Shown here piece by piece: positions 14,473 to 28,584 of a stretch of 64,000 nucleotides of DNA (the stretch's first letter is position 1; each line of letters starts with the position of its first letter). The notes beneath the pieces are model-generated. The model did not search any database, was not told the origin of the DNA, and saw only the letters and a list, made by a program, of their open reading frames with translations. Source of the stretch: Flavobacterium sp. (GTDB lineage: Bacteria > Bacteroidota > Bacteroidia > Flavobacteriales > Flavobacteriaceae). The stretch spans positions 62,001-126,000 of the forward strand of contig NZ_JANJUQ010000045.1 of NCBI RefSeq assembly GCF_024710485.1. The letters are read 5' to 3'. Both the position numbers and the translations under genes were made by a program.

Positions 14473-14503
14473 TTTGCATTCTAAAATAATTATTATACTT
14501 TTG
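14473..14503 (+). promoter_or_regulatory. Promoter for rplC operon: TTTG-N19-TACTTTTG
   Basis: -33 TTTG 14473-14476, -7 TACTTTTG 14496-14503. Confidence 0.8.
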
Positions 14504-14563
14504 CACGCTCGATTGGGGTAGTATGCCCTTTTCAAAAAATTAGTAATTTAAAATAAGTTTAAT

Positions 14564-15181
14564 ATGTCTGGGTTAATTGGAAAAAAAATCGGCATGACAA
14601 GCATCTTTGATGAAAACGGGAAAAACATTCCTTGTACAGTAATCGAAGCTGGTCCATGTGTCGTTACCCAAGTCAGAACCAAAGAGGTTGACGGGTATGA
14701 GGCTCTTCAACTTGGTTTCGATGACAAATCAGAAAAACACGCTACAAAAGCTGATTTAGGTCACTTTAAAAAAGCGGGTACTTCTGCTAAGAAAAAAGTC
14801 GTTGAATTCCAAGGATTTGAAGAAAACTACAAATTAGGTGATAATATCACTGTGGAAGTATTCAGCGAAGGAGAATTTGTTGATGTACAGGGTGTATCAA
14901 AAGGTAAAGGTTTCCAAGGGGTTGTAAAACGTCACGGTTTTGGTGGGGTTGGACAATCCACACATGGTCAACACAACCGTTTAAGAGCGCCGGGATCTGT
15001 CGGGGCATCTTCTTATCCATCACGTGTATTCAAAGGGATGCGTATGGCTGGAAGAATGGGAGGAGATAATGTAAAAGTACAAAATCTTAGAGTTTTGAAA
15101 GTAGTGGCTGAAAAGAACCTACTTGTGGTTAAAGGTGCTATTCCTGGACACAAAAACTCTTATGTAATCATTCAGAAGTAA
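14564..15181 (+). CDS. rplC: 50S ribosomal protein L3
   Basis: [20 protein letters not shown]. Confidence 0.98.
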
Positions 15182-15810
15182 TGGAAGTAAAAGTTTTAGA
15201 TATCAACGGAAAAGATACTGGAAGAAAAGTTGAACTTTCTGATTCAGTATTCGGCATTGAGCCAAATAATCACGCAGTATATCTTGATGTTAAGCAATAC
15301 TTAGCCAATCAAAGACAAGGTAACCACAAAGCTAAAGAAAGAGCTGAAGTTGCCGGAAGTACTCGTAAGATTAAAAAGCAAAAAGGTACAGGTACTGCTC
15401 GTGCAGGATCTAAAAAGAGTCCATTGTTCAAAGGTGGAGGAACAGTTTTCGGTCCAAGACCAAGAAGCTACTCTTTCAAATTGAACAAAACTTTAAAAAG
15501 ATTGGCTCGTAAATCAGCTTTGTCTTTAAAAGTAAAAGAGTCAAATTTAGTTGTTGTGGAAGACTTCAATTTTGAAACACCAAACACTAAAAATTTCATT
15601 AACGTTTTGAAAGCTTTAGGGTTAGAGAACAAAAAATCATTGTTCGTGTTGGGTGATTTAAATAAAAATGTATATTTGTCGTCACGCAATTTAAAAGCCT
15701 CTAGTGTTGTAACTAATTCAGAATTAAGCACTTATGCTATATTAAACGCTAATAATTTAGTGTTATCTGAGGGTTCATTAGAAGGAATTGTTGAAAACTT
15801 AAGTAAATAA
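15181..15810 (+). CDS. rplD: 50S ribosomal protein L4
   Basis: [31 protein letters not shown]. Confidence 0.98.
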
Positions 15811-15816
15811 CAGGCC

Positions 15817-16107
15817 ATGAGTATCATTATTAAACCTATCATTACTGAAAAAATCACCAAAGAAGGTGAGGTTTTTAATCGTTTTGGTTTTGTTGTTGAC
15901 AAAAAAGCCAACAAAGTTCAAATTAAGAAAGCTGTAGAGGCTGCTTATGGAATTACTGTTGTAGATGTGAACACGATGAACTACAGAGCTGACAGAACCG
16001 TAAAATATACAAAAAGCGGATTGATCAGCGGTAAAACAAATGCTTATAAAAAAGCAGTTGTTCAAGTAAAAGAAGGAGAAACAATAGATTTTTATAATAA
16101 TATCTAA
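15817..16107 (+). CDS. rplW: 50S ribosomal protein L23
   Basis: IIKPIITEKITKEGE...FVVDKKANKVQIKKAVE. Confidence 0.97.
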   Translation: MSIIIKPIITEKITKEGEVFNRFGFVVDKKANKVQIKKAVEAAYGITVVDVNTMNYRADRTVKYTKSGLISGKTNAYKKAVVQVKEGETIDFYNNI

Positions 16108-16113
16108 TAGAAA

Positions 16114-16938
16114 ATGTCAGTTAGAAAATTAAAACCTATTACCCCGGGTCAGCGTTTTAGAGTTGTGAATGGTTTTGACGCCATTACAACTGATAAGCCG
16201 GAGCGCTCTTTGTTAGCACCGATAAAAAACTCAGGAGGTAGAAATAGTCAAGGAAAAATGACCATGCGTTATACAGGCGGTGGTCACAAACAGAGGTATC
16301 GTATCATTGATTTCAAAAGAACTAAAGTGGGAATCCCTGCTACAGTGAAATCTATCGAGTACGATCCAAACAGAACAGCTTTTATCGCGTTATTGTGGTA
16401 TGCAGATGGGGAGAAAACCTATATTGTTGCTCAAAACGGATTACAAGTAGGACAAACAGTTGTGTCTGGTGAAGGTGCAGCTCCTGAAATCGGAAATACT
16501 TTGCCTTTGAGCAAAATTCCATTGGGAACTGTTATTTCTTGTATTGAATTGCGTCCTGGACAAGGAGCGGTTATTGCTCGTTCTGCAGGTACATTTGCTC
16601 AATTAATGGCAAGAGACGGAAAATATGCTACTATTAAAATGCCTTCAGGTGAAACAAGATTAATCTTGTTGACTTGTTCAGCAACTATTGGAGCTGTTTC
16701 TAACTCTGATCACCAATTAATCGTATCTGGTAAAGCAGGTAGAAGCAGATGGTTAGGTAGAAGACCAAGAACAAGACCGGTAGCAATGAACCCAGTAGAT
16801 CACCCAATGGGAGGTGGTGAAGGACGTTCATCTGGAGGTCACCCACGTTCTAGAAAAGGTTTACCGGCTAAAGGTTACAGAACTCGTTCTAAAGTTAACC
16901 CGAGCAACAAGTATATTGTAGAACGCAGAAAGAAATAA
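16114..16938 (+). CDS. rplB: 50S ribosomal protein L2
   Basis: [27 protein letters not shown]. Confidence 0.98.
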
Positions 16939-16948
16939 TTAGATAGAC

Positions 16949-17227
16949 ATGGCACGTTCATTAAAAAAAGGACCATTTGTTCACTATAAATTAGATAAAA
17001 AAGTTCAGGAAAATATTGCCGGAGGTAATAAAGGAGTAGTTAAGACTTGGTCTAGAGCTTCAATGATTACACCGGACTTCGTAGGACAAACTATCGCAGT
17101 TCACAATGGTCGTCAATTTGTTCCGGTTTATGTAACTGAGAACATGGTAGGACATAAATTAGGAGAGTTTTCACCAACAAGATCTTTTAGAGGTCATGCT
17201 GGAGCAAAAAATAAAGGTAAAAAATAA
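16949..17227 (+). CDS. rpsS: 30S ribosomal protein S19
   Basis: [19 protein letters not shown]. Confidence 0.98.
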
Positions 17228-17233
17228 GAAGCA

Positions 17234-17644
17234 ATGGGAGTTCGTAAAAGAGAAACTGCAGACGCAAGAAAAGAGGCTAACAAGTCTATTGCCTTTGCTA
17301 AATTAAATAACTGCCCTACTTCACCTAGAAAAATGCGCTTAGTAGCAGACTTGGTAAGAGGTCAGAAAGTGGAAAGAGCTTTAAATATTTTAAGATTTAG
17401 CTCAAAAGAAGCTTCACGCAAATTAGAAAAACTATTATTATCAGCTATCAACAACTGGGAACAGAAAAATGCTGAAGGTAATGTAGCGGAAGCAGGCTTA
17501 TTTGTTAAAGAAATCCGTGTAGACGGCGGGATGATGTTGAAAAGACTTCGTCCGGCTCCACAAGGAAGAGCACACAGAATTAGAAAACGTTCTAACCACG
17601 TAACTATCGTGTTGGGACAATTAGATAACACACAAAGTAATTAA
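17234..17644 (+). CDS. rplV: 50S ribosomal protein L22
   Basis: [27 protein letters not shown]. Confidence 0.97.
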
Positions 17645-17652
17645 TAAACAGT

Positions 17653-18399
17653 ATGGGACAAAAGACAAATCCAATTGGAAATCGCCTTGGTATCATCAGA
17701 GGATGGGATTCAAACTGGTATGGTGGAAATGATTACGGTGATAAAATCGCCGAAGATTATAAAATCAGAAAGTACATCCACGCTCGTTTATCAAAAGCTA
17801 GTGTGTCAAAAGTAATTATCGAGAGAACTTTGAAACTTGTAACCGTTACTATCACTACGGCTCGTCCAGGTATCATTATTGGTAAAGGCGGTCAAGAGGT
17901 AGACAAGTTAAAAGAAGAACTTAAGAAAGTTACTGACAAAGAGGTTCAAATTAACATCTTTGAAATTAAAAGACCAGAGTTAGATGCTTATTTAGTTGCA
18001 ACAAGTATCGCTCGTCAAATCGAGAGCCGTATTTCATACAGAAGAGCTATTAAAATGGCTATCGCTGCAGCAATGCGTATGAATGCAGAAGGTATCAAAG
18101 TTTTGATCTCTGGTCGTTTGAATGGAGCTGAAATGGCACGTTCTGAGCAATTCAAAGAAGGAAGAATTCCTCTATCAACTTTCAGAGCCGATATTGATTA
18201 TGCTTTAGGTGAAGCTCATACTACTTATGGTAGAATGGGTATCAAAGTATGGATCATGAAAGGTGAGGTTTACGGAAAAAGAGATCTATCTCCATTAGTA
18301 GGCATGGACAAAAAACAAGCCGGTCAAGGTGGTGGAAAAAATGATGCTCCACGTGGTGGAAAATCAAACGGAAAACCAGGAGCTCGTAAAAGAAAGTAA
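17653..18399 (+). CDS. rpsC: 30S ribosomal protein S3
   Basis: [25 protein letters not shown]. Confidence 0.98.
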
Positions 18400-18416
18400 T
18401 TTTAAACTAAAGAAAG

Positions 18417-18842
18417 ATGTTACAACCTAAAAGAACAAAATACCGTAAGGTACAGAAGGGTAGAATGAAAGGTGTTTCTCAAAGAGGACACGAGCTTTCT
18501 AATGGAATGTTTGGAATTAAATCAGTACATGAAACCGGAATGTTCTTAACTTCACGTCAAATCGAGGCTGCGCGTATCGCTGCAACTCGTTTCATGAAGA
18601 GAGAAGGACAATTATGGATTAAAATTTTCCCGGATAAACCAATTACCAAAAAACCTCTAGAGGTTCGTATGGGTAAAGGAAAAGGAGCTGTTGAATATTG
18701 GGCAGCTGTAGTTAAACCAGGAAAAATCATGTTTGAAGTAGGTGGCGTGCCACTATCAGTTGCTAAAGAAGCTTTGCGTTTAGCTGCTCAAAAACTTCCA
18801 GTTAAAACTAAGTTTGTAGTTGCTAGAGATTTCGAAGCATAA
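18417..18842 (+). CDS. rplP: 50S ribosomal protein L16
   Basis: [19 protein letters not shown]. Confidence 0.98.
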
Positions 18843-18855
18843 TCAAAAAAATATT

Positions 18856-19047
18856 ATGAAACAATCAGAAATTATCAATCTGTCTGCAGCTGAGTTGCAA
18901 GTGAAACTTACTGAGTTGAGAAAAGTTTATATGGATTTAAAATCTACACATGCTATTTCTCCAATCGCCAATCCACTTCAAATCAGAAGTGCCCGAAGAG
19001 CTGTTGCTAGAGTAGCAACTGAGCTAACTAAAAGAGAGTTACAATAA
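18856..19047 (+). CDS. rpmC: 50S ribosomal protein L29
   Basis: [21 protein letters not shown]; start trimmed from ORF-track 18820. Confidence 0.95.
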
Positions 19048-19066
19048 TTGTATGCTAGCTGAAAAG

Positions 19067-19324
19067 ATGGAAAAAAGAAATTTAAGAAAAGAAAGAATTG
19101 GTGTTGTTACGTCAAACAAAATGGACAAGTCTATTGTTGTGGCACAAGTAACCAGAGTAAAACACCCGTTATATGGTAAGTTCGTATTGAAAACTAAAAA
19201 GTTTCATGCACACGACGAAACAAATGACTGTAACATTGGTGATACCGTAAAGATCATGGAAACAAGACCTTTATCAAAAACCAAATGTTGGAGATTAGTT
19301 GAAATCATTGAAAGAGCGAAGTAA
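19067..19324 (+). CDS. rpsQ: 30S ribosomal protein S17
   Basis: [25 protein letters not shown]; alternative start 19052. Confidence 0.95.
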
Positions 19325-19326
19325 TT

Positions 19327-19695
19327 ATGGTACAACAGGAATCAAGATTAAAAGTAGCAGATAACACAGGAGCCAAAGAAGTTTTGACTATCCGTGTTTT
19401 AGGAGGAACGAAACGTCGTTATGCCTCTGTTGGAGATAAAATTGTAGTGTCAATTAAAGATGCAACACCAAACGGAAACGTAAAAAAAGGTGCTGTTTCT
19501 ACTGCAGTTGTTGTGCGTACCAAAAAAGAAGTGAGAAGAGCCGATGGTTCTTACATCCGTTTCGACGATAATGCTTGTGTTCTTTTGAATGCAGCAGGAG
19601 AAATGAGAGGAACTCGTGTTTTTGGTCCGGTTGCAAGAGAACTTCGTGAAAAACAATTCATGAAAATTGTATCATTAGCACCAGAAGTGCTTTAA
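19327..19695 (+). CDS. rplN: 50S ribosomal protein L14
   Basis: [27 protein letters not shown]. Confidence 0.98.
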
Positions 19696-19707
19696 TTCGT
19701 TAGTAAG

Positions 19708-20022
19708 ATGATAAAGCTAAAAATAAAATCAGGAGATGTAGTAAAAGTTATCGCAGGTGACCACAAAGGTGCTGAAGGTAAAGTTTTACGCGTTGACCGT
19801 GAAAAAAACAAAGCCATCGTTGAAGGGGTAAATATGGTGTCTAAACACACTAAGCCGAGTGCTAAAAACCCTCAAGGAGGCATTGTTAAGAAAGAAGCTC
19901 CTATTCATATTTCCAATATTGCCTTAATTGATCCAAAATCAAAAAGCGCAACTAAGGTTGGAATCAAGGTTGAAGGAGATAAGAAAGTGAGATTTTCAAA
20001 AAAATCTAATCAAGTATTATAG
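19708..20022 (+). CDS. rplX: 50S ribosomal protein L24
   Basis: [29 protein letters not shown]. Confidence 0.97.
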
Positions 20023-20024
20023 TT

Positions 20025-20576
20025 ATGGCTTATACACCTAGACTTAAACAAGAATATAAGGACAGAGTAATTGCTGCCCTTAAAGAAGAATTCGGTTATA
20101 AAAACGTGATGCAAGTTCCAAAATTGGAAAAAATCGTTTTAAGCCGTGGCGTTGGTGCTGCAGTGTCTGATAAAAAATTAGTAGATTATGCAGTAGAAGA
20201 GTTAACTAAAGTTACCGGTCAAAAAGCAGTAGCTACTATTTCCAAAAAAGACGTTGCGTCTTTCAAATTGAGAAAAGGCATGCCAATCGGTGCTAAAGTA
20301 ACCCTTAGAGGTGAAAGAATGTATGAGTTCTTAGACAGATTGATTACATCTTCTTTACCACGTGTAAGAGATTTTAACGGTATCAAAGCTACAGGTTTTG
20401 ACGGAAGAGGTAACTACAACTTAGGGGTAACTGAGCAAATCATTTTCCCTGAGATTGATATCGACAAAGTAAACAAAATCTCCGGATTGGATATAACTTT
20501 CGTAACTTCTGCAAAAACAGATAAAGAAGCAAAGTCATTATTGGCTGAATTAGGTTTACCTTTTAAAAAGAATTAA
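20025..20576 (+). CDS. rplE: 50S ribosomal protein L5
   Basis: [36 protein letters not shown]. Confidence 0.98.
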
Positions 20577-20579
20577 GAC

Positions 20580-20849
20580 ATGGCTAAAGAATCAATGAAA
20601 GCCCGTGAGGTTAAAAGAGCTAATACGGTAGCAAAGTACGCTGAAAAAAGAAAGGCTTTATTAGAAGCCGGAGATTATGAAGGTTTACAAAAATTACCAA
20701 AAAATGCTTCACCGGTTCGTATGCACAATCGTTGCAAATTAACAGGTAGACCAAGAGGATATATGAGACAATTTGGTATTTCGCGTGTTACTTTCCGTGA
20801 AATGGCAAACCAAGGATTGATCCCGGGAGTAAAAAAAGCCAGCTGGTAA
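20580..20849 (+). CDS. rpsN: 30S ribosomal protein S14 (zinc-independent long form)
   Basis: [13 protein letters not shown]...[39 protein letters not shown]. Confidence 0.97.
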
Positions 20850-20862
20850 TAGTTGGAATTTC

Positions 20863-20916
20863 AGCAGATAATTGTACATTTGCCGGATTTTTGCCGGTAA
20901 CGTGCAATTATCTGCT
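20863..20916 (+). ncRNA. Long intra-operon hairpin between rpsN and rpsH (candidate cis-regulatory or processing RNA)
   Basis: AGCAGATAATTG ... CAATTATCTGCT perfect 12-bp arms, extended by TAC/GTG, TTG/TAA and CCGG/CCGG pairs around a 7-nt loop. Confidence 0.55.
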
Positions 20917-20991
20917 TTAAAAATTGAGTTTAATGGCTTCAGGTTCAGGGGAATAGTTTCTTTTGAAAACCGTTGCCGAATTTTAATAAAT

Positions 20992-21390
20992 ATGTATACA
21001 GATCCAATTGCAGATTATCTTACGAGAGTTAGAAATGCAGTGATGGCTAACCACAAAGTGGTAGAAATCCCGGCTTCTAACTTGAAAAAAGAAATCACGA
21101 AGATTTTATTCGATCAAGGATATATCTTGAGCTACAAGTTTGATGACAGTACTGTACAAGGTACCATCAAAATCGCTTTGAAGTATGATAAAGATACTAA
21201 AGAGCCGGTAATTAAAGATATCCAAAGAATTAGTAAACCAGGTTTACGTAAATATGCAGGTGCTGCAAAACTACCTAGAATCCTTAACGGATTAGGAATT
21301 GCTATCGTTTCCACTTCAAAAGGTTTGATGACCGGTAAACAAGCTAAGCAATTAAATGTTGGTGGAGAAGTAATTTGTTACGTATACTAA
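20992..21390 (+). CDS. rpsH: 30S ribosomal protein S8
   Basis: [32 protein letters not shown]-track start 20872 runs through the upstream hairpin. Confidence 0.97.
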
Positions 21391-21404
21391 AAAACAGTTA
21401 AACA

Positions 21405-21947
21405 ATGTCAAGAATAGGTAAAAATCCAATTTCGATTCCTGCAGGTGTAACTGTTGATGTAAACGCTACTACAGTTACTGTAAAAGGAAAATTAGGTCAA
21501 CTTTCACAAGAGTACTCAGATGTAACAGTAAAAGTTGAAGAAGGTCAAGTAATCGTTGAAAGATCTTCTGATAATAAAGAACACAGAGCAAAACACGGAT
21601 TATACAGAGCCTTAATCAACAATATGATTGTAGGAGTATCTGATGGTTTTACAAAAGAATTAGAATTGGTTGGAGTAGGTTACAGAGCTTCTAATCAAGG
21701 TCAAAAATTAGACTTAGCCTTAGGTTTTTCACATAATATCGTTTTAGAAGTAGCTCCTGAAGTAAAATTGGAAACGATTTCTGAAAAAGGGAAAAACCCA
21801 ATCGTTAAGTTGACGTCTCACGATAAACAACTTTTAGGATTAATTTCTGCCAAAATCAGAGGTTTCCGTAAGCCTGAACCTTACAAAGGAAAAGGAGTTA
21901 AGTTTGTTGGTGAAGTATTAAGAAGAAAAGCAGGTAAATCAGCGTAA
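21405..21947 (+). CDS. rplF: 50S ribosomal protein L6
   Basis: [15 protein letters not shown]...[21 protein letters not shown]. Confidence 0.98.
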
Positions 21948-21958
21948 AAATTAGCATT

Positions 21959-22312
21959 ATGTCATTAACAAAAACTGAAAGAAGACAAAGAATTAAATTC
22001 AGAATCAGAAAGATTGTTAGCGGTACTGCTGCTAAACCAAGATTATCTGTGTTCAGAAGTAATAAAGAAATCTATGCGCAACTCATTGATGATGTGAATG
22101 GAGTTACTTTATTAGCTGCTTCATCAAAAGATAAAGGAGTTGATCTAAAAGGTACTAACGTTGAAATCGCTGCTGCTGTTGGAAAACTTGCTGCCGAAAA
22201 AGCGTTAAAAGCCGGTATTACAGAAGTAACTTTCGACAGAGGAGGTTATTTGTACCACGGTCGTATTAAATCATTAGCTGAAGGCGCAAGAGCCGCTGGA
22301 CTTAAATTCTAA
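21959..22312 (+). CDS. rplR: 50S ribosomal protein L18
   Basis: [29 protein letters not shown]. Confidence 0.97.
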
Positions 22313-22318
22313 TATATT

Positions 22319-22840
22319 ATGTCTAAATACAAAAATGTAGAATTAGTAAAACCTAGCGGTCTTGAATTAAAAGATCGTTTGGTAAGTGTAAATCGTGTTA
22401 CCAAAGTAACCAAAGGAGGTAGAGCTTTCGGGTTTTCTGCTATCGTGGTTGTAGGTGATGAGAATGGTGTAGTTGGTCACGGATTAGGAAAATCTAAAGA
22501 TGTTTCTGAAGCTATTGCTAAAGCAGTAGAAGATGCAAAGAAAAACTTAGTTAGAATTCCGTTAAGTGGTCAATCTGTACCTCACGAACAAAAAGGAAAA
22601 TTTGGTGGAGCTGCTGTATATTTAATGCCTGCGTCTCACGGTACCGGAGTTATTGCCGGTGGTGCTGTACGTGCGGTATTGGAGTCAGTTGGGGTTCACG
22701 ACGTATTGTCAAAATCTCAAGGTTCATCAAACCCTCATAACGTAGTTAAAGCAACTTTTGATGCTTTATTGCAAATGAGAAGTGCCGTTACTGTTGCCAA
22801 ACAGAGAGGTATTTCTTTAGAGAAAGTTTTTAAAGGTTAA
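22319..22840 (+). CDS. rpsE: 30S ribosomal protein S5
   Basis: [34 protein letters not shown]. Confidence 0.98.
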
Positions 22841-22852
22841 TTCAAGGAAATT

Positions 22853-23035
22853 ATGGCTAAATTATTAGTAAAACAAGTTAGAAGCAAAATCAACTGTCCT
22901 CTTACCCAAAAAAGAGGATTGGAAGCTTTAGGTCTTCGTAGAATGGGACAAGTTGTGGAGCATGATTCAAATCCGGCTATCCTTGGAATGATAAATAAAG
23001 TTAAACACTTAGTTTCCGTTGAGGAAGTTAAATAA
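22853..23035 (+). CDS. rpmD: 50S ribosomal protein L30
   Basis: 60 aa, 'KQVRSKINCPLTQKRGLEALGLRRMGQVVEHD'. Confidence 0.96.
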   Translation: MAKLLVKQVRSKINCPLTQKRGLEALGLRRMGQVVEHDSNPAILGMINKVKHLVSVEEVK

Positions 23036-23050
23036 TAAATCATCATAGTT

Positions 23051-23503
23051 ATGAATTTAAGTAACTTACAACCGGCTGAAGGTTCAACACACAATCAAAA
23101 TAAAAGAGTAGGTAGAGGAGAAGGTTCTGGAAAAGGTGGTACTGCTGCACGTGGACACAAAGGAGCTAAATCTCGTTCAGGTTACTCTAAAAAGATTGGT
23201 TTTGAAGGAGGTCAAATGCCACTTCAAAGACGTGTGCCTAAGTTTGGTTTCAAGAACATTAACAGAGTAGAATATCAAGGAGTAAATCTTGATACACTTC
23301 AAGCTTTAGTAGATAACGGAATCGTAACAGATACTGTAGATTTTGCAGTGTTGGTTGAAAATCGTTTAGCTACCAAAACTGAAGTTGTTAAGATTTTAGG
23401 CAGAGGAGAATTAAAAGCAAAATTAAAAGTAACTGCTCACAAGTTTACTGCTACTGCAAAAGCGGCTATTGAAGCTGCCGGTGGTGAAGCTGTAACCTTA
23501 TAA
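23051..23503 (+). CDS. rplO: 50S ribosomal protein L15
   Basis: MNLSNLQPAEGSTHNQNKRVGRGEGSGKGGTAARGHKGAKSRSG. Confidence 0.98.
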   Translation: MNLSNLQPAEGSTHNQNKRVGRGEGSGKGGTAARGHKGAKSRSGYSKKIGFEGGQMPLQRRVPKFGFKNINRVEYQGVNLDTLQALVDNGIVTDTVDFAVLVENRLATKTEVVKILGRGELKAKLKVTAHKFTATAKAAIEAAGGEAVTL

Positions 23504-23514
23504 TTGATATTACA

Positions 23515-24858
23515 ATGAAGAAATTTTTTGAATCATTAAATAATGTTTGGAAAATAGAAGAACTAAGAAACAGAATCGTGTTTACGCTCGGTTTGTTATT
23601 GGTTTATCGATTTGGTGCGCATGTAACTTTGCCGGGCATTGATGCAACTCAGTTGGAAAACTTAGCCGATCAAACAGAAAATGGTATTGGTTCAATACTG
23701 GATATGTTTACCGGAGGAGCTTTCTCTAAAGCATCAGTTTTTGCTTTAGGTATCATGCCTTACATCTCAGCTTCAATTGTTGTTCAATTAATGGGTATCG
23801 CTATCCCTTACCTGCAAAAATTGCAAAAAGACGGAGAAAGCGGTAGAAAGAAATTGAATCAGATCACCAGATGGTTAACTATAGCCATTACATTAGTACA
23901 AGGACCTGGTTATTTATATAACTTGCATTCAACCCTTCCGGGCAATGCTTTCCTTTTGCCAATTGATTCATTCCAATTTCTTTTCTCGTCAGTATTAATT
24001 TTAACTACGGGTACTATTTTCTCCATGTGGTTAGGTGAAAAAATTACTGATAAAGGTATAGGTAACGGTATTTCCTTGTTAATCATGGTAGGTATCTTAG
24101 CCAGATTACCGCAAGCATTAATTCAAGAATTCACCTCTAAGGTTACTAATAACAATGGTGGACCAATGGTGTTGGTTTTCGAAATAGTAGTATGGTTGTT
24201 AGTAATCATCGCTTGTGTATTATTAGTAATGGCAGTTAGAAAAATTCCGGTACAATACGCTCGTCGTACAACCACCGGAGATTTCGAACAAGACATGATG
24301 GGTGGAAACAGACAATGGATTCCGTTAAAATTGAATTCTGCAGGAGTTATGCCAATCATCTTCGCACAAGCTATTATGTTTATTCCGGCTGCTTTAGCAG
24401 GTCTTTCAAATTCTGAAACTTCCCAGTCTATTGCCGGTACATTCAGTAATATGTTCGGATTTTGGTACAACTTTGTTTTTGCTTTGTTGATTTTGATTTT
24501 CACCTTCTTCTACACGGCAATTACAGTTCCGACCAATAAAATGGCAGATGATTTAAAAAGAAGCGGTGGTTTTATTCCTGGTGTTAAACCTGGTGTAGAA
24601 ACGGCAGATTTCTTAGATAAGATCATGTCTCTTATAACATTCCCGGGCTCATTATTTTTAGCATTAATCGCTGTGTTCCCAGCTATTGTTGTTAGTCTTG
24701 ATGTGCAACAATCTTGGGCAATGTTCTATGGTGGTACTTCACTAATTATTATGGTGGGAGTTGCTATTGACACTATTCAACAAATAAATTCTTATTTATT
24801 GAATAAACACTATGACGGATTGATGAAAAGTGGTAAAAATAGAAAAGCAGTAGCTTAA
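23515..24858 (+). CDS. secY: Preprotein translocase subunit SecY
   Basis: [34 protein letters not shown], multi-TM. Confidence 0.98.
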
Positions 24859-24863
24859 TTTTT

Positions 24864-25079
24864 ATGGCAAAACAATCAGCAATAGAACAAGACGGAACCA
24901 TCATTGAAGCATTATCCAATGCGATGTTTCGTGTAGAATTAGAAAACGGACACGTTGTAATTGCTCATATTTCCGGAAAAATGCGTATGCATTACATCAA
25001 ATTGTTACCAGGTGACAAAGTGAAATTGGAAATGAGCCCTTACGATTTATCCAAAGCAAGAATTACTTATAGATACTAA
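24864..25079 (+). CDS. infA: Translation initiation factor IF-1
   Basis: [71 protein letters not shown]. Confidence 0.98.
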
Positions 25080-25090
25080 AGCTAACTAAT

Positions 25091-25207
25091 ATGAAAGTAA
25101 GAGCATCAGTTAAAAAAAGAAGTGCCGAGTGCATTATCGTACGTCGCAAAGGCAGATTGTACGTGATTAATAAAAAGAATCCTAGATTTAAACAAAGACA
25201 AGGATAA
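25091..25207 (+). CDS. rpmJ: 50S ribosomal protein L36 (below ORF-track size cutoff)
   Basis: Own translation: [38 protein letters not shown] (38 aa). Confidence 0.97.
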
Positions 25208-25210
25208 GTT

Positions 25211-25585
25211 ATGGCAAGAATAGCAGGGGTAGACATCCCAAAAAACAAAAGAGGAGTTATCGCTTTGACCTACATCTTCGGAATTGGTAAAAGCAGAGCT
25301 ATTGAGATTTTAGAAAAAGCTCAAGTTAGCCAAGATAAAAAAGTTCAAGAGTGGAATGACGACGAAATCGGAGCAATCCGTGATGCCGTTTCATACTACA
25401 AAATTGAAGGTGAGCTTCGTTCAGAAGTGTCATTGCACATCAAACGTTTGATGGATATCGGATGTTACAGAGGAATCCGTCACAGATCTGGTCTTCCTTT
25501 AAGAGGACAAAGAACTAAGAACAACTCTAGAACAAGAAAAGGTAAAAGAAAAACTGTTGCTAACAAGAAAAAAGCAACTAAATAA
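25211..25585 (+). CDS. rpsM: 30S ribosomal protein S13
   Basis: [26 protein letters not shown]. Confidence 0.98.
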
Positions 25586-25593
25586 TAAATAGT

Positions 25594-25977
25594 ATGGCTA
25601 AAACGACTGCAAAAAAACGTAAAGTTATCGTTGAATCAACGGGTGAGGCTCATATTAATGCAACCTTCAACAACATCATCATTTCGTTAACTAACAAAAA
25701 AGGTGAAGTTATTTCTTGGTCTTCAGCCGGTAAAATGGGCTTCAGAGGTTCTAAAAAGAACACTCCGTACGCAGCTCAAATGGCTGCCGAAGATTGTGGA
25801 AAAGTTGCTTTAGAAGCTGGTCTTAAAAAAGTAAAAGTATATGTTAAAGGACCTGGTAACGGACGTGAGTCTGCTATCAGATCTATTCATAACTCAGGTA
25901 TTGAAGTAACCGAAATCATCGACGTTACACCAATGCCGCACAACGGATGTCGTCCTCCTAAAAGACGTAGAGTATAA
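25594..25977 (+). CDS. rpsK: 30S ribosomal protein S11
   Basis: [16 protein letters not shown]...[18 protein letters not shown]. Confidence 0.98.
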
Positions 25978-25990
25978 TTATAGTATAATC

Positions 25991-26044
25991 AAGGCAGAAC
26001 CAAGGTTATCGAAGGATTCGACCTGAATTCATAACCTCTGTCTT
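25991..26044 (+). ncRNA. Structured element upstream of rpsD (candidate S4 autoregulatory leader)
   Basis: AAGGCAG/CTGTCTT outer stem (one G-U), AGGTTAT/ATAACCT middle stem, CGAA-GGA-TTCG apical hairpin in the rpsK-rpsD gap. Confidence 0.5.
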
Positions 26045-26057
26045 AAAACAATTTAAA

Positions 26058-26663
26058 ATGGCAAGATATACTGGTCCAAGTACAAAAATCGCCCGTAAAT
26101 TCGGCGAAGCAATTTTCGGAGAAGACAAAGCCTTCGAAAAAAGAAATTACCCTCCGGGACAACACGGAATGGCAAAAAAACGCGGTAAAAAATCCGAGTA
26201 TGCTGTTCAGTTAATGGAGAAACAAAAAGCAAAATACACTTACGGTATTTTGGAAAAACAATTCAGAAACTTGTTCGAAAAAGCGGCTGCTTCTAAAGGA
26301 GTAACCGGTGAAATTCTTTTACAATTATGTGAAGCTCGTTTAGACAACGTAGTATACAGAATGGGAATTGCACCTTCAAGAAGAGCTGCAAGACAAATCG
26401 TTTCTCACCGTCACATCACAGTTAACGGTGAATTGGTAAACATCCCGTCTTACCACTTGAAAGCCGGTGATAAAGTAGCTGTTCGTGAAAAATCTAAATC
26501 TGTTGAAGCTATCGAGCGTTCATTAGCCAACTCTTCTCACGTATACGAGTGGATTACATGGAATAACGATACTAAAGAAGGAACTTTTGTTTCTGTTCCT
26601 CAAAGACTTCAAATTCCAGAAAACATCAAAGAACAATTAATCGTAGAGTTGTACAACAAATAA
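26058..26663 (+). CDS. rpsD: 30S ribosomal protein S4
   Basis: [20 protein letters not shown]...YPPGQHG...[10 protein letters not shown]. Confidence 0.98.
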
Positions 26664-26684
26664 TAATTGACATTCGTCTAAATT

Positions 26685-27677
26685 ATGGCAATATTTAATT
26701 TTCAGAAGCCCGATAAAGTTATCATGATCGATTCTACCGATTTTGAAGGTAAATTTGAATTCAGACCTTTAGAACCGGGATACGGATTGACCGTAGGTAA
26801 TGCCCTTAGAAGAGTTTTACTTTCTGCTTTAGAGGGATATGCCATCACTTCGGTTCGTATCGAAGGCGTTGAGCATGAGTTCTCTACTATTTCAGGAGTG
26901 GTAGAAGATGTAACCGAAATTATCCTTAACCTTAAACAAGTACGTTTCAAACGTCAAATTGAAGAGGTTGATAACGAAACGGTTTCTATCTCTATCTCCG
27001 GAAAAGACCAAATTACAGCAGGTGACTTCCAAAAGTTCATCTCTGGATTCCAAGTGTTAAACCCGGAATTGGTAATTTGTAATCTTGACAGCAAAGTAAA
27101 TCTTAACATGGAATTGACTATCGAGAAAGGTCGTGGTTATGTTCCTGCTGAGGAGAACAAAAAACAAAATGCAGCTATCGGTACCATTTTCATCGATTCT
27201 ATTTTTACTCCGGTAAAAAATGTGAAATACGCGATTGAAAACTTCCGTGTGGAGCAAAAAACAGATTACGAAAAATTGGTTTTTGAAATCAAAACTGATG
27301 GTTCAATCAATCCGAAAGATGCCCTAACAGAAGCTGCTAAAGTTTTGATTCACCACTTTATGTTGTTCTCCGATGAGAGAATCACATTGGAAGCTGATGA
27401 AATTGCTCAAACAGAATCTTACGACGAAGAATCATTACACATGAGACAACTGTTGAAAACCAAATTGGTTGATATGGACTTGTCTGTAAGAGCCTTGAAC
27501 TGTTTGAAAGCAGCCGAAGTTGACACCTTAGGAGATCTTGTATCTTTCAATAAAAACGACTTAATGAAGTTCCGCAATTTTGGTAAAAAATCATTAACTG
27601 AGTTAGATGAGTTGGTAGCCAACAAAAATTTGACTTTCGGAATGGACTTAAGCAAATATAAACTAGATAAAGAATAA
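26685..27677 (+). CDS. rpoA: DNA-directed RNA polymerase subunit alpha
   Basis: [28 protein letters not shown]-terminal alpha-CTD. Confidence 0.98.
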
Positions 27678-27740
27678 ATTACTTCATATTTTGCTCTCCA
27701 AAGCGGATTGTAGCAAGATGAAGGTTAAAAAAAGTACGTC

Positions 27741-28340
27741 ATGAGACACGGAAAAAAAGTAAATCACTTAAGCAGACAAACCGGACACAGAAAGTCTATG
27801 TTGGCTAATATGGCTTGTTCTCTTATCGAGCACAAACGCATTATTACCACTGTTGCTAAAGCCAAAGCGCTTAAACAATTTGTTGAGCCGTTAGTAACCA
27901 AATCAAAAGAAGATACTACGCACAACAGACGTATTGTTTTCGCTTACATCAGAAACAAATATGCAGTAACTGAATTGTTCAGAGAAGTAGCTGCTAAAGT
28001 TGGTGACCGTCCGGGAGGATACACTCGTATCATCAAGTTAGGGAACCGTTTGGGAGATAACGCTGATATGGCCATGATCGAGTTGGTAGACTTCAACGAA
28101 CTATACAACGGAGGTAAAAAAGAGGAGAAAAAAGGTAGAACACGTCGTGCTAAAAAATCGACTTCAACCGAGAAAGCTCCTGTAGCAGCTGCACCTAAAG
28201 CAGAAGCTCCTGCACAGGTTGTAGAAGATGTAGTGGAAGAAACTCCGGCTGTTGAAGAAACTCCGGTAGCAGAAGCTCCTGCCGCAGACCAAACGCCTGA
28301 AGCTCCGGCTGACGAAGAATCTAAAGAAGAGCAAGCCTAA
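27741..28340 (+). CDS. rplQ: 50S ribosomal protein L17 with extended Ala/Pro/Glu-rich C-terminal tail
   Basis: [34 protein letters not shown]...; tail '[38 protein letters not shown]'. Confidence 0.97.
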
Positions 28341-28432: not shown

Positions 28433-28584
28433 GGCTCGGGATTTACCGGCATACCATTTTCCCGCTTTGCGTTACAATCTTTACTGTTTGTCACCCTGAG
28501 CGCAGTCGAAGGGCTTTTTCCAAAAACAGTAAAGGATTTCCACTTCACACGAGTGTAGCGAATTGCCGAAGGAATCGGGGCTAA
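28433..28584 (-). repeat. Dispersed intergenic repeat, copy A, with a nested insert
   Basis: GGCTCGGGATTTA...TTCCCGCTTTGCG...CACACGAGTGTAGCGAATTGCCGAAGGAATCGGGGCTAA matches reverse complement of copy B apart from the insert. Confidence 0.65.
28479..28534. repeat. Nested element: 11-bp perfect inverted repeats flanking CACCCTGAGCGCAGTCGAAGGG
   Basis: CTTTACTGTTT (28479-28489) and AAACAGTAAAG (28524-28534). Confidence 0.65.

Follow-up and report, generated by a model that had tools for sequence, protein, structure and literature searches.

A candidate S8 leader RNA and a co-varying hairpin over a predicted promoter in the rpsN–rpsH spacer of Flavobacterium

The way in which ribosomal protein S8 controls the spc operon is a textbook example of ribosome feedback. 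In Escherichia coli, where S8 is a known regulator of this operon (PMC10931766), the S8 operator lies at the start of rplE in the spc mRNA and is a stem with an asymmetric internal loop like that of helix 21 of the 16S rRNA (Olins, Nomura; 1S03). According to a 2024 review, it is not known how spc is regulated in Bacillus subtilis and other species outside the gammaproteobacteria (PMC10931766). Among the 20 new ribosomal leaders of one survey, those in Flavobacteria are for S4, S15 and S16, and none is for S8 (PMC7247131). In the open-access literature we found no earlier description of an S8 leader in these bacteria; a report that we did not see is possible.

Here we describe the spacer between rpsN and rpsH in the ribosomal protein operon of a Flavobacterium sp., within a stretch of 64,000 nucleotides that we refer to as the window. 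In agreement with a preliminary description of this DNA, the spacer is 142 nt long (20850–20991), extending from the rpsN stop at 20849 to the rpsH ATG at 20992; a TTG at 20872 is the mechanical open reading frame start for rpsH, the true gene start being at 20992. The following features are relevant here, all on the + strand:

20580–20849, + strand: rpsN (S14) coding sequence, the upstream neighbour, from open reading frame and translation.
20863–20916, + strand: hairpin of 22 pairs in 54 nt, clade-restricted and co-varying, from folding, an inverted-repeat scan and relatives.
20932–20980, + strand: candidate S8 leader RNA, a 17-pair stem-loop (covariance model R1, 51.4 bits, one per genome).
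20941–20946, + strand: 5′ strand of the S8-like core, A (595), GG (596, 597), UU (598, 599) and C, invariant in alignment A1.
20965–20971, + strand: 3′ strand of the S8-like core, GAA (639 and 640 paired), AA bulge (641, 642) and CC (643, 644), from the alignment.
20992–21390, + strand: rpsH (S8), whose translation contains the A642-contacting S-T-S motif.
26004–26036, + strand: S4-Flavobacteria ribosomal leader (RF03141) in the rpsK–rpsD gap, 45.9 bits.

The preliminary description had noticed the hairpin and had considered that it might be an S8 leader ahead of rpsH. The proposal of such a leader is well supported; the structure concerned, however, is a separate one, located 16 nt downstream of the hairpin and right before rpsH. 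The hairpin itself was rejected for this role, being found in only ~37 of 400 Flavobacterium genomes and showing no S8-like core anywhere in the alignment of hairpin sequences. By contrast, a leader-type structure precedes rpsH in 151 of 165 distinct spacers, drawn from ~190 rpsN–rpsH loci. Among 71 diverse sequences, double-sided changes occur at 14 of its 17 pairs, and its covariation score of 0.401 compares with 0.162 ± 0.010 in shuffles, none of 500 being as high, and with 0.06–0.14 in slid versions. Model R1 has a single significant place in the window and in the genome, and it gives hits in 258 of 400 Flavobacteriaceae genomes, which represent 125 of 187 genera, with one match per listed genome; all 34 leader loci inspected in this family lie 5′ of rpsH. 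Two weak off-locus matches outside Flavobacteriaceae, obtained in a class-wide search, were discarded as false. We are almost certain that this leader is a functional RNA.

In 129 of 151 leaders, 20 nt separate the core from the rpsH ATG, and the stem ends ~11 nt before the start codon; this fixed arrangement would fit a block of translation initiation. Flavobacteria are not known to use Shine-Dalgarno sequences, and an S8 leader would here represent translational repression without one. In some Flavobacteriaceae, among them Myroides and a few Flavobacterium, the rpsN–rpsH gap is ~20 nt long and holds no leader (L026, L054, L095, L156, L174, L195, L202); in three of these loci (L026, L054, L095), R1 found no match at another position either.

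The internal part of the leader can be compared with the asymmetric core of 16S helix 21 that S8 recognises. In this core, A595 lies by the A596–U644 pair, G597–C643 is associated with U641 in a (G–C)–U triple, and A642, which is invariant, and A640 also take part (PMC4176348). The corresponding core in 16S rRNA of Flavobacterium relatives, which we used since the source assembly contains no 16S, is UAAGUC/GAUACU. In this site, U598 pairs with A640. The leader core reads A-GG-UU / AA-[A/U]A-CC, and the elements it has in common with helix 21, namely the bulged A595, G597–C643, U598–A640 and A642, are invariant or nearly so. A642, G597–C643, U598–A640 and an A595 next to 596–644 are thus all present in the chosen register, which requires a two-base bulge beside G–C pairs; RNAalifold chose a neighbouring register that the sequence allows equally. 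The leader differs from helix 21 in that 596–644 is G–C rather than A–U and in that position 641, U in the rRNA consensus, is mostly A (141 of the 151 leaders have A and 10 have U). The S-T-S motif of S8, which stacks on A642 (PMC4176348), is present in the S8 encoded in the window. Judged from this similarity, and from rpsH being the next gene and S8 a known regulator of this operon in E. coli, the ligand of the leader is very probably S8. If so, S8 would be sensed here in a previously undescribed way.

Like the E. coli operator, the candidate leader is a stem with an asymmetric internal loop resembling helix 21, is located upstream of or within an operon encoding S8 and would, as we presume, act in translational feedback. 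Unlike that operator, it is intergenic and directly ahead of rpsH, has a different outer structure and belongs to a different phylum. R1 found no site at the start of rplE, nor a second one elsewhere in the window or genome, so the arrangement is not that of the E. coli-type spc operator. The S4-Flavobacteria leader RF03141 is likewise intergenic, ahead of a ribosomal protein gene and in the same operon; it differs from our candidate in sequence and structure, and its ligand is S4. A search of Rfam 15, recommended in the preliminary description, returned no family for the hairpin or the leader at the gathering score (best chance match rdlD, E 3.9). Such an absence says little by itself, because the E. 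coli S8 operator has no matching Rfam 15 family either.

The upstream hairpin was reproduced as first described, in its coordinates as well as in its 22 pairs, with arms AGCAGATAATTG/CAATTATCTGCT, an AT/C internal loop and a 7-nt loop. It is the sole inverted repeat of at least 14 nt with separate arms in the ribosomal protein operon (14500–28000) and occurs once in the genome. The 81-nt segment that contains it folds at −31 kcal/mol, compared with −13.4 ± 2.65 in 200 dinucleotide shuffles, none of which was as low (z −6.65). When 400 Flavobacterium genomes were searched at the DNA level, the segment was matched in 38, at a single place each, of which ~37 are genuine, since the weakest is a 21-nt match at another place. 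In every locus that was read, the hairpin lies between rpsN and rpsH, and all 52 spacers bearing it (52/52) represent this same locus. Covariation in relatives had been proposed as a check, and Flavobacterium sequences indeed show paired changes in excess of shuffles: in an alignment of 29 distinct sequences, standard pairs occupy 92.3% of the pair cells, 5 of the 22 pairs have double-sided changes, and the covariation score is 0.198 versus 0.126 ± 0.008 (0/500 shuffles as high), a signal that is destroyed when the partner is slid. These paired changes imply that the paired structure is under selection and that the element is not mobile. Its distribution within the genus is patchy, and a tree built from rpsN and rpsH DNA is too short for a good count of gains and losses. 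The hairpin is absent from most relatives and so cannot have a general role, and the leader would explain control of rpsH without it. A switch between the two structures was tested and not supported, as leader formation is 0.65 with and 0.64 without the hairpin in the 29 sequences; a 7-bp complementarity between GGTAACG in the hairpin 3′ arm and CGTTGCC, seen in the window, is not kept in relatives.

The hairpin also coincides with a promoter motif, and three further features are needed at this point:

14496–14503, + strand: TACTTTTG, candidate −7 box of the main operon promoter ahead of rplC (match to TAHHTTTG).
20853–20855, + strand: TTG, possible −33 element that precedes the −7 box by 19 nt, read from the sequence and present in some but not all hairpin-bearing relatives.
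20875–20882, + strand: TACATTTG, sigma-A −7 box in the hairpin 5′ arm (invariant TA..TTTGC, match to TAHHTTTG).

The sigma-A −7 box of Bacteroidota, TAnnTTTG, spans −12 to −5 (PMC9723704; PMC6847099). In the 29 distinct hairpin sequences, TA and TTTGC (alignment columns 15–16 and 19–23) never change, whereas columns 17–18 are free (CA, AG, TG). Of 102 distinct Flavobacteriaceae spacers in which the leader is preceded by 30 nt or more, 82 contain the motif, a count inflated by related species, versus 7.8 ± 2.7 in shuffles; none of the 63 spacers shorter than this contains it. In the operon region, intergenic matches to TAHHTTTG on the + strand are limited to 14496 and 20875. The window has the exact −7 box of a Bacteroidota sigma-A promoter (TTTG / TAnnTTTG) and a TTG with a 19-nt spacer; it departs from the usual promoter in that a long inverted repeat holds the box in one of its arms and the predicted start in its loop, at ~20887, 5 nt past the box. 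The invariant TAnnTTTGC suggests that transcription from an internal promoter probably starts in the hairpin loop, and on the strength of the motif we regard a promoter in this spacer as likely. Counting against it, the hairpins of clade A2 carry TAAGTTTG, with a G at −9, a base almost never found there in F. johnsoniae promoters (PMC6847099). The box in the 5′ arm had been missed in the preliminary description.

On balance, we lean towards a two-layer control region in the rpsN–rpsH spacer, composed of an S8 leader and a hairpin over an internal promoter. Free S8 would bind the helix-21-like core of the leader and, once bound, would keep ribosomes from the rpsH start codon, which lies 20 nt downstream, so that less S8 and less of the products of the genes after rpsH would be made. 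The hairpin would overlap the internal sigma-A promoter, such that transcripts begun there would start in its loop and carry the S8 leader only, whereas read-through transcripts would carry the whole hairpin. In the latter, it may form a decay barrier or a processing site between the mRNA of rpsN and upstream genes and the S8-controlled part; we put this RNA role forward tentatively, with somewhat less than even confidence. Rather unlikely, in our estimation, is the more elaborate idea that the fate of the mRNA depends on its start point, with internally started RNA free of the hairpin and governed by the S8 leader only, with read-through RNA cut or capped at the hairpin so that the two halves of the operon are uncoupled, and with this layout having been reached by unrelated sequences in Flavobacterium and Polaribacter.

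Other lineages have unrelated hairpins at the same spot, with or without the promoter motif and including double hairpins. In Polaribacter-type spacers (L064, L080, L091, L092, L112, L117), for instance, an unrelated hairpin, AAAAATAGAATGTG-TATCTTTG-CACGCTCTATTTTT, has a −7 box in its loop, in a layout like that of the window.

The main rival to an RNA barrier or processing site is a DNA operator, where a regulator bound to the inverted repeat that covers the −7 box would control the internal promoter and the hairpin would have no role in RNA. Such an operator would account for the −7 box in the 5′ arm of two unrelated hairpin types and for the strong conservation of this arm (mean entropy 0.28, against 0.51 in the 3′ arm). 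Yet, even with up to 2 mismatches allowed, no other promoter of the genome carries the half-site, and the arms, 22 nt long with G–U pairs and internal loops, also count against an operator. Moreover, folding is more stable for the + strand (mean −27.9) than for the − strand (−24.6; Wilcoxon p 0.003), because departures from standard pairing are more often G–U than A–C; this bias speaks for RNA, although the sequences are related and the clade of the window itself is mixed. We consider a purely DNA-level role unlikely, and an RNA barrier or processing site continues to be our preferred, if tentative, reading of the hairpin.

As for the leader, its ligand might be another ribosomal protein of the operon (L6, L18 or S5), or it might be a simple translational damper that needs no protein. 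The nearest gene often does not encode the ligand of a ribosomal leader (PMC7247131), and position 641 is off the rRNA consensus in most leaders. Still, the agreement of the invariant core with the S8 site goes beyond that of any generic hairpin, and an independent-looking leader has a core that is closer still: in the rpsN–rpsH spacer of a sister family of the same order (f2), we found a longer, different leader with the outer core AAGUU/AA[U/A]ACU, in which A596–U644 is as in rRNA and half of the sequences have U641. The f2 leaders escape detection by R1, so their kinship with the Flavobacteriaceae leader rests on core and position, not on overall structure; they too have no match in Rfam 15. 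A ligand other than S8, or none, therefore seems improbable to us. If S8 is indeed the ligand, its feedback would extend to another phylum and to a new position. Most Flavobacteriaceae have the leader ahead of rpsH, f2 has a different one, and the idea is directly testable in a cultivable Flavobacterium.

Many f2 leaders contain a second S8-like core with swapped strands (5′ GATACT ... 3′ AAGTC), whose letters are those of the 16S helix 21 core; it is seen in L254, L255, L258, L270–L272, L274–L281, L284 and L285 and lost in L263, L273, L282 and L283.

Some lineages have an unrelated T-run hairpin at the same spot (L058, L073), from which one could suspect an attenuator or terminator of transcription between the two genes. 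We deem it very improbable for the window, where no T run lies 3′ of the hairpin stem and a search for terminator-like sites gave no match, in line with the initial judgement that this is not a classical terminator. In F. taihuense-type spacers (L058, L073, L159, L166), the hairpin position is taken by CAGACGTGAGTAATCACGTCTG followed by TTTTT, an intrinsic-terminator-like arrangement ahead of the S8 leader.

A mobile palindrome, initially listed among the options, or a chance inverted repeat would suit the patchy occurrence in the genus but has next to no probability, given a single copy with no others at unrelated loci, the same locus in all relatives, the co-varying arms and the folding energy far below that of shuffles. 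The window also contains a Flavo-1 RNA (RF01705), a family of unknown function, at 28454–28560 on the − strand (48.8 bits).
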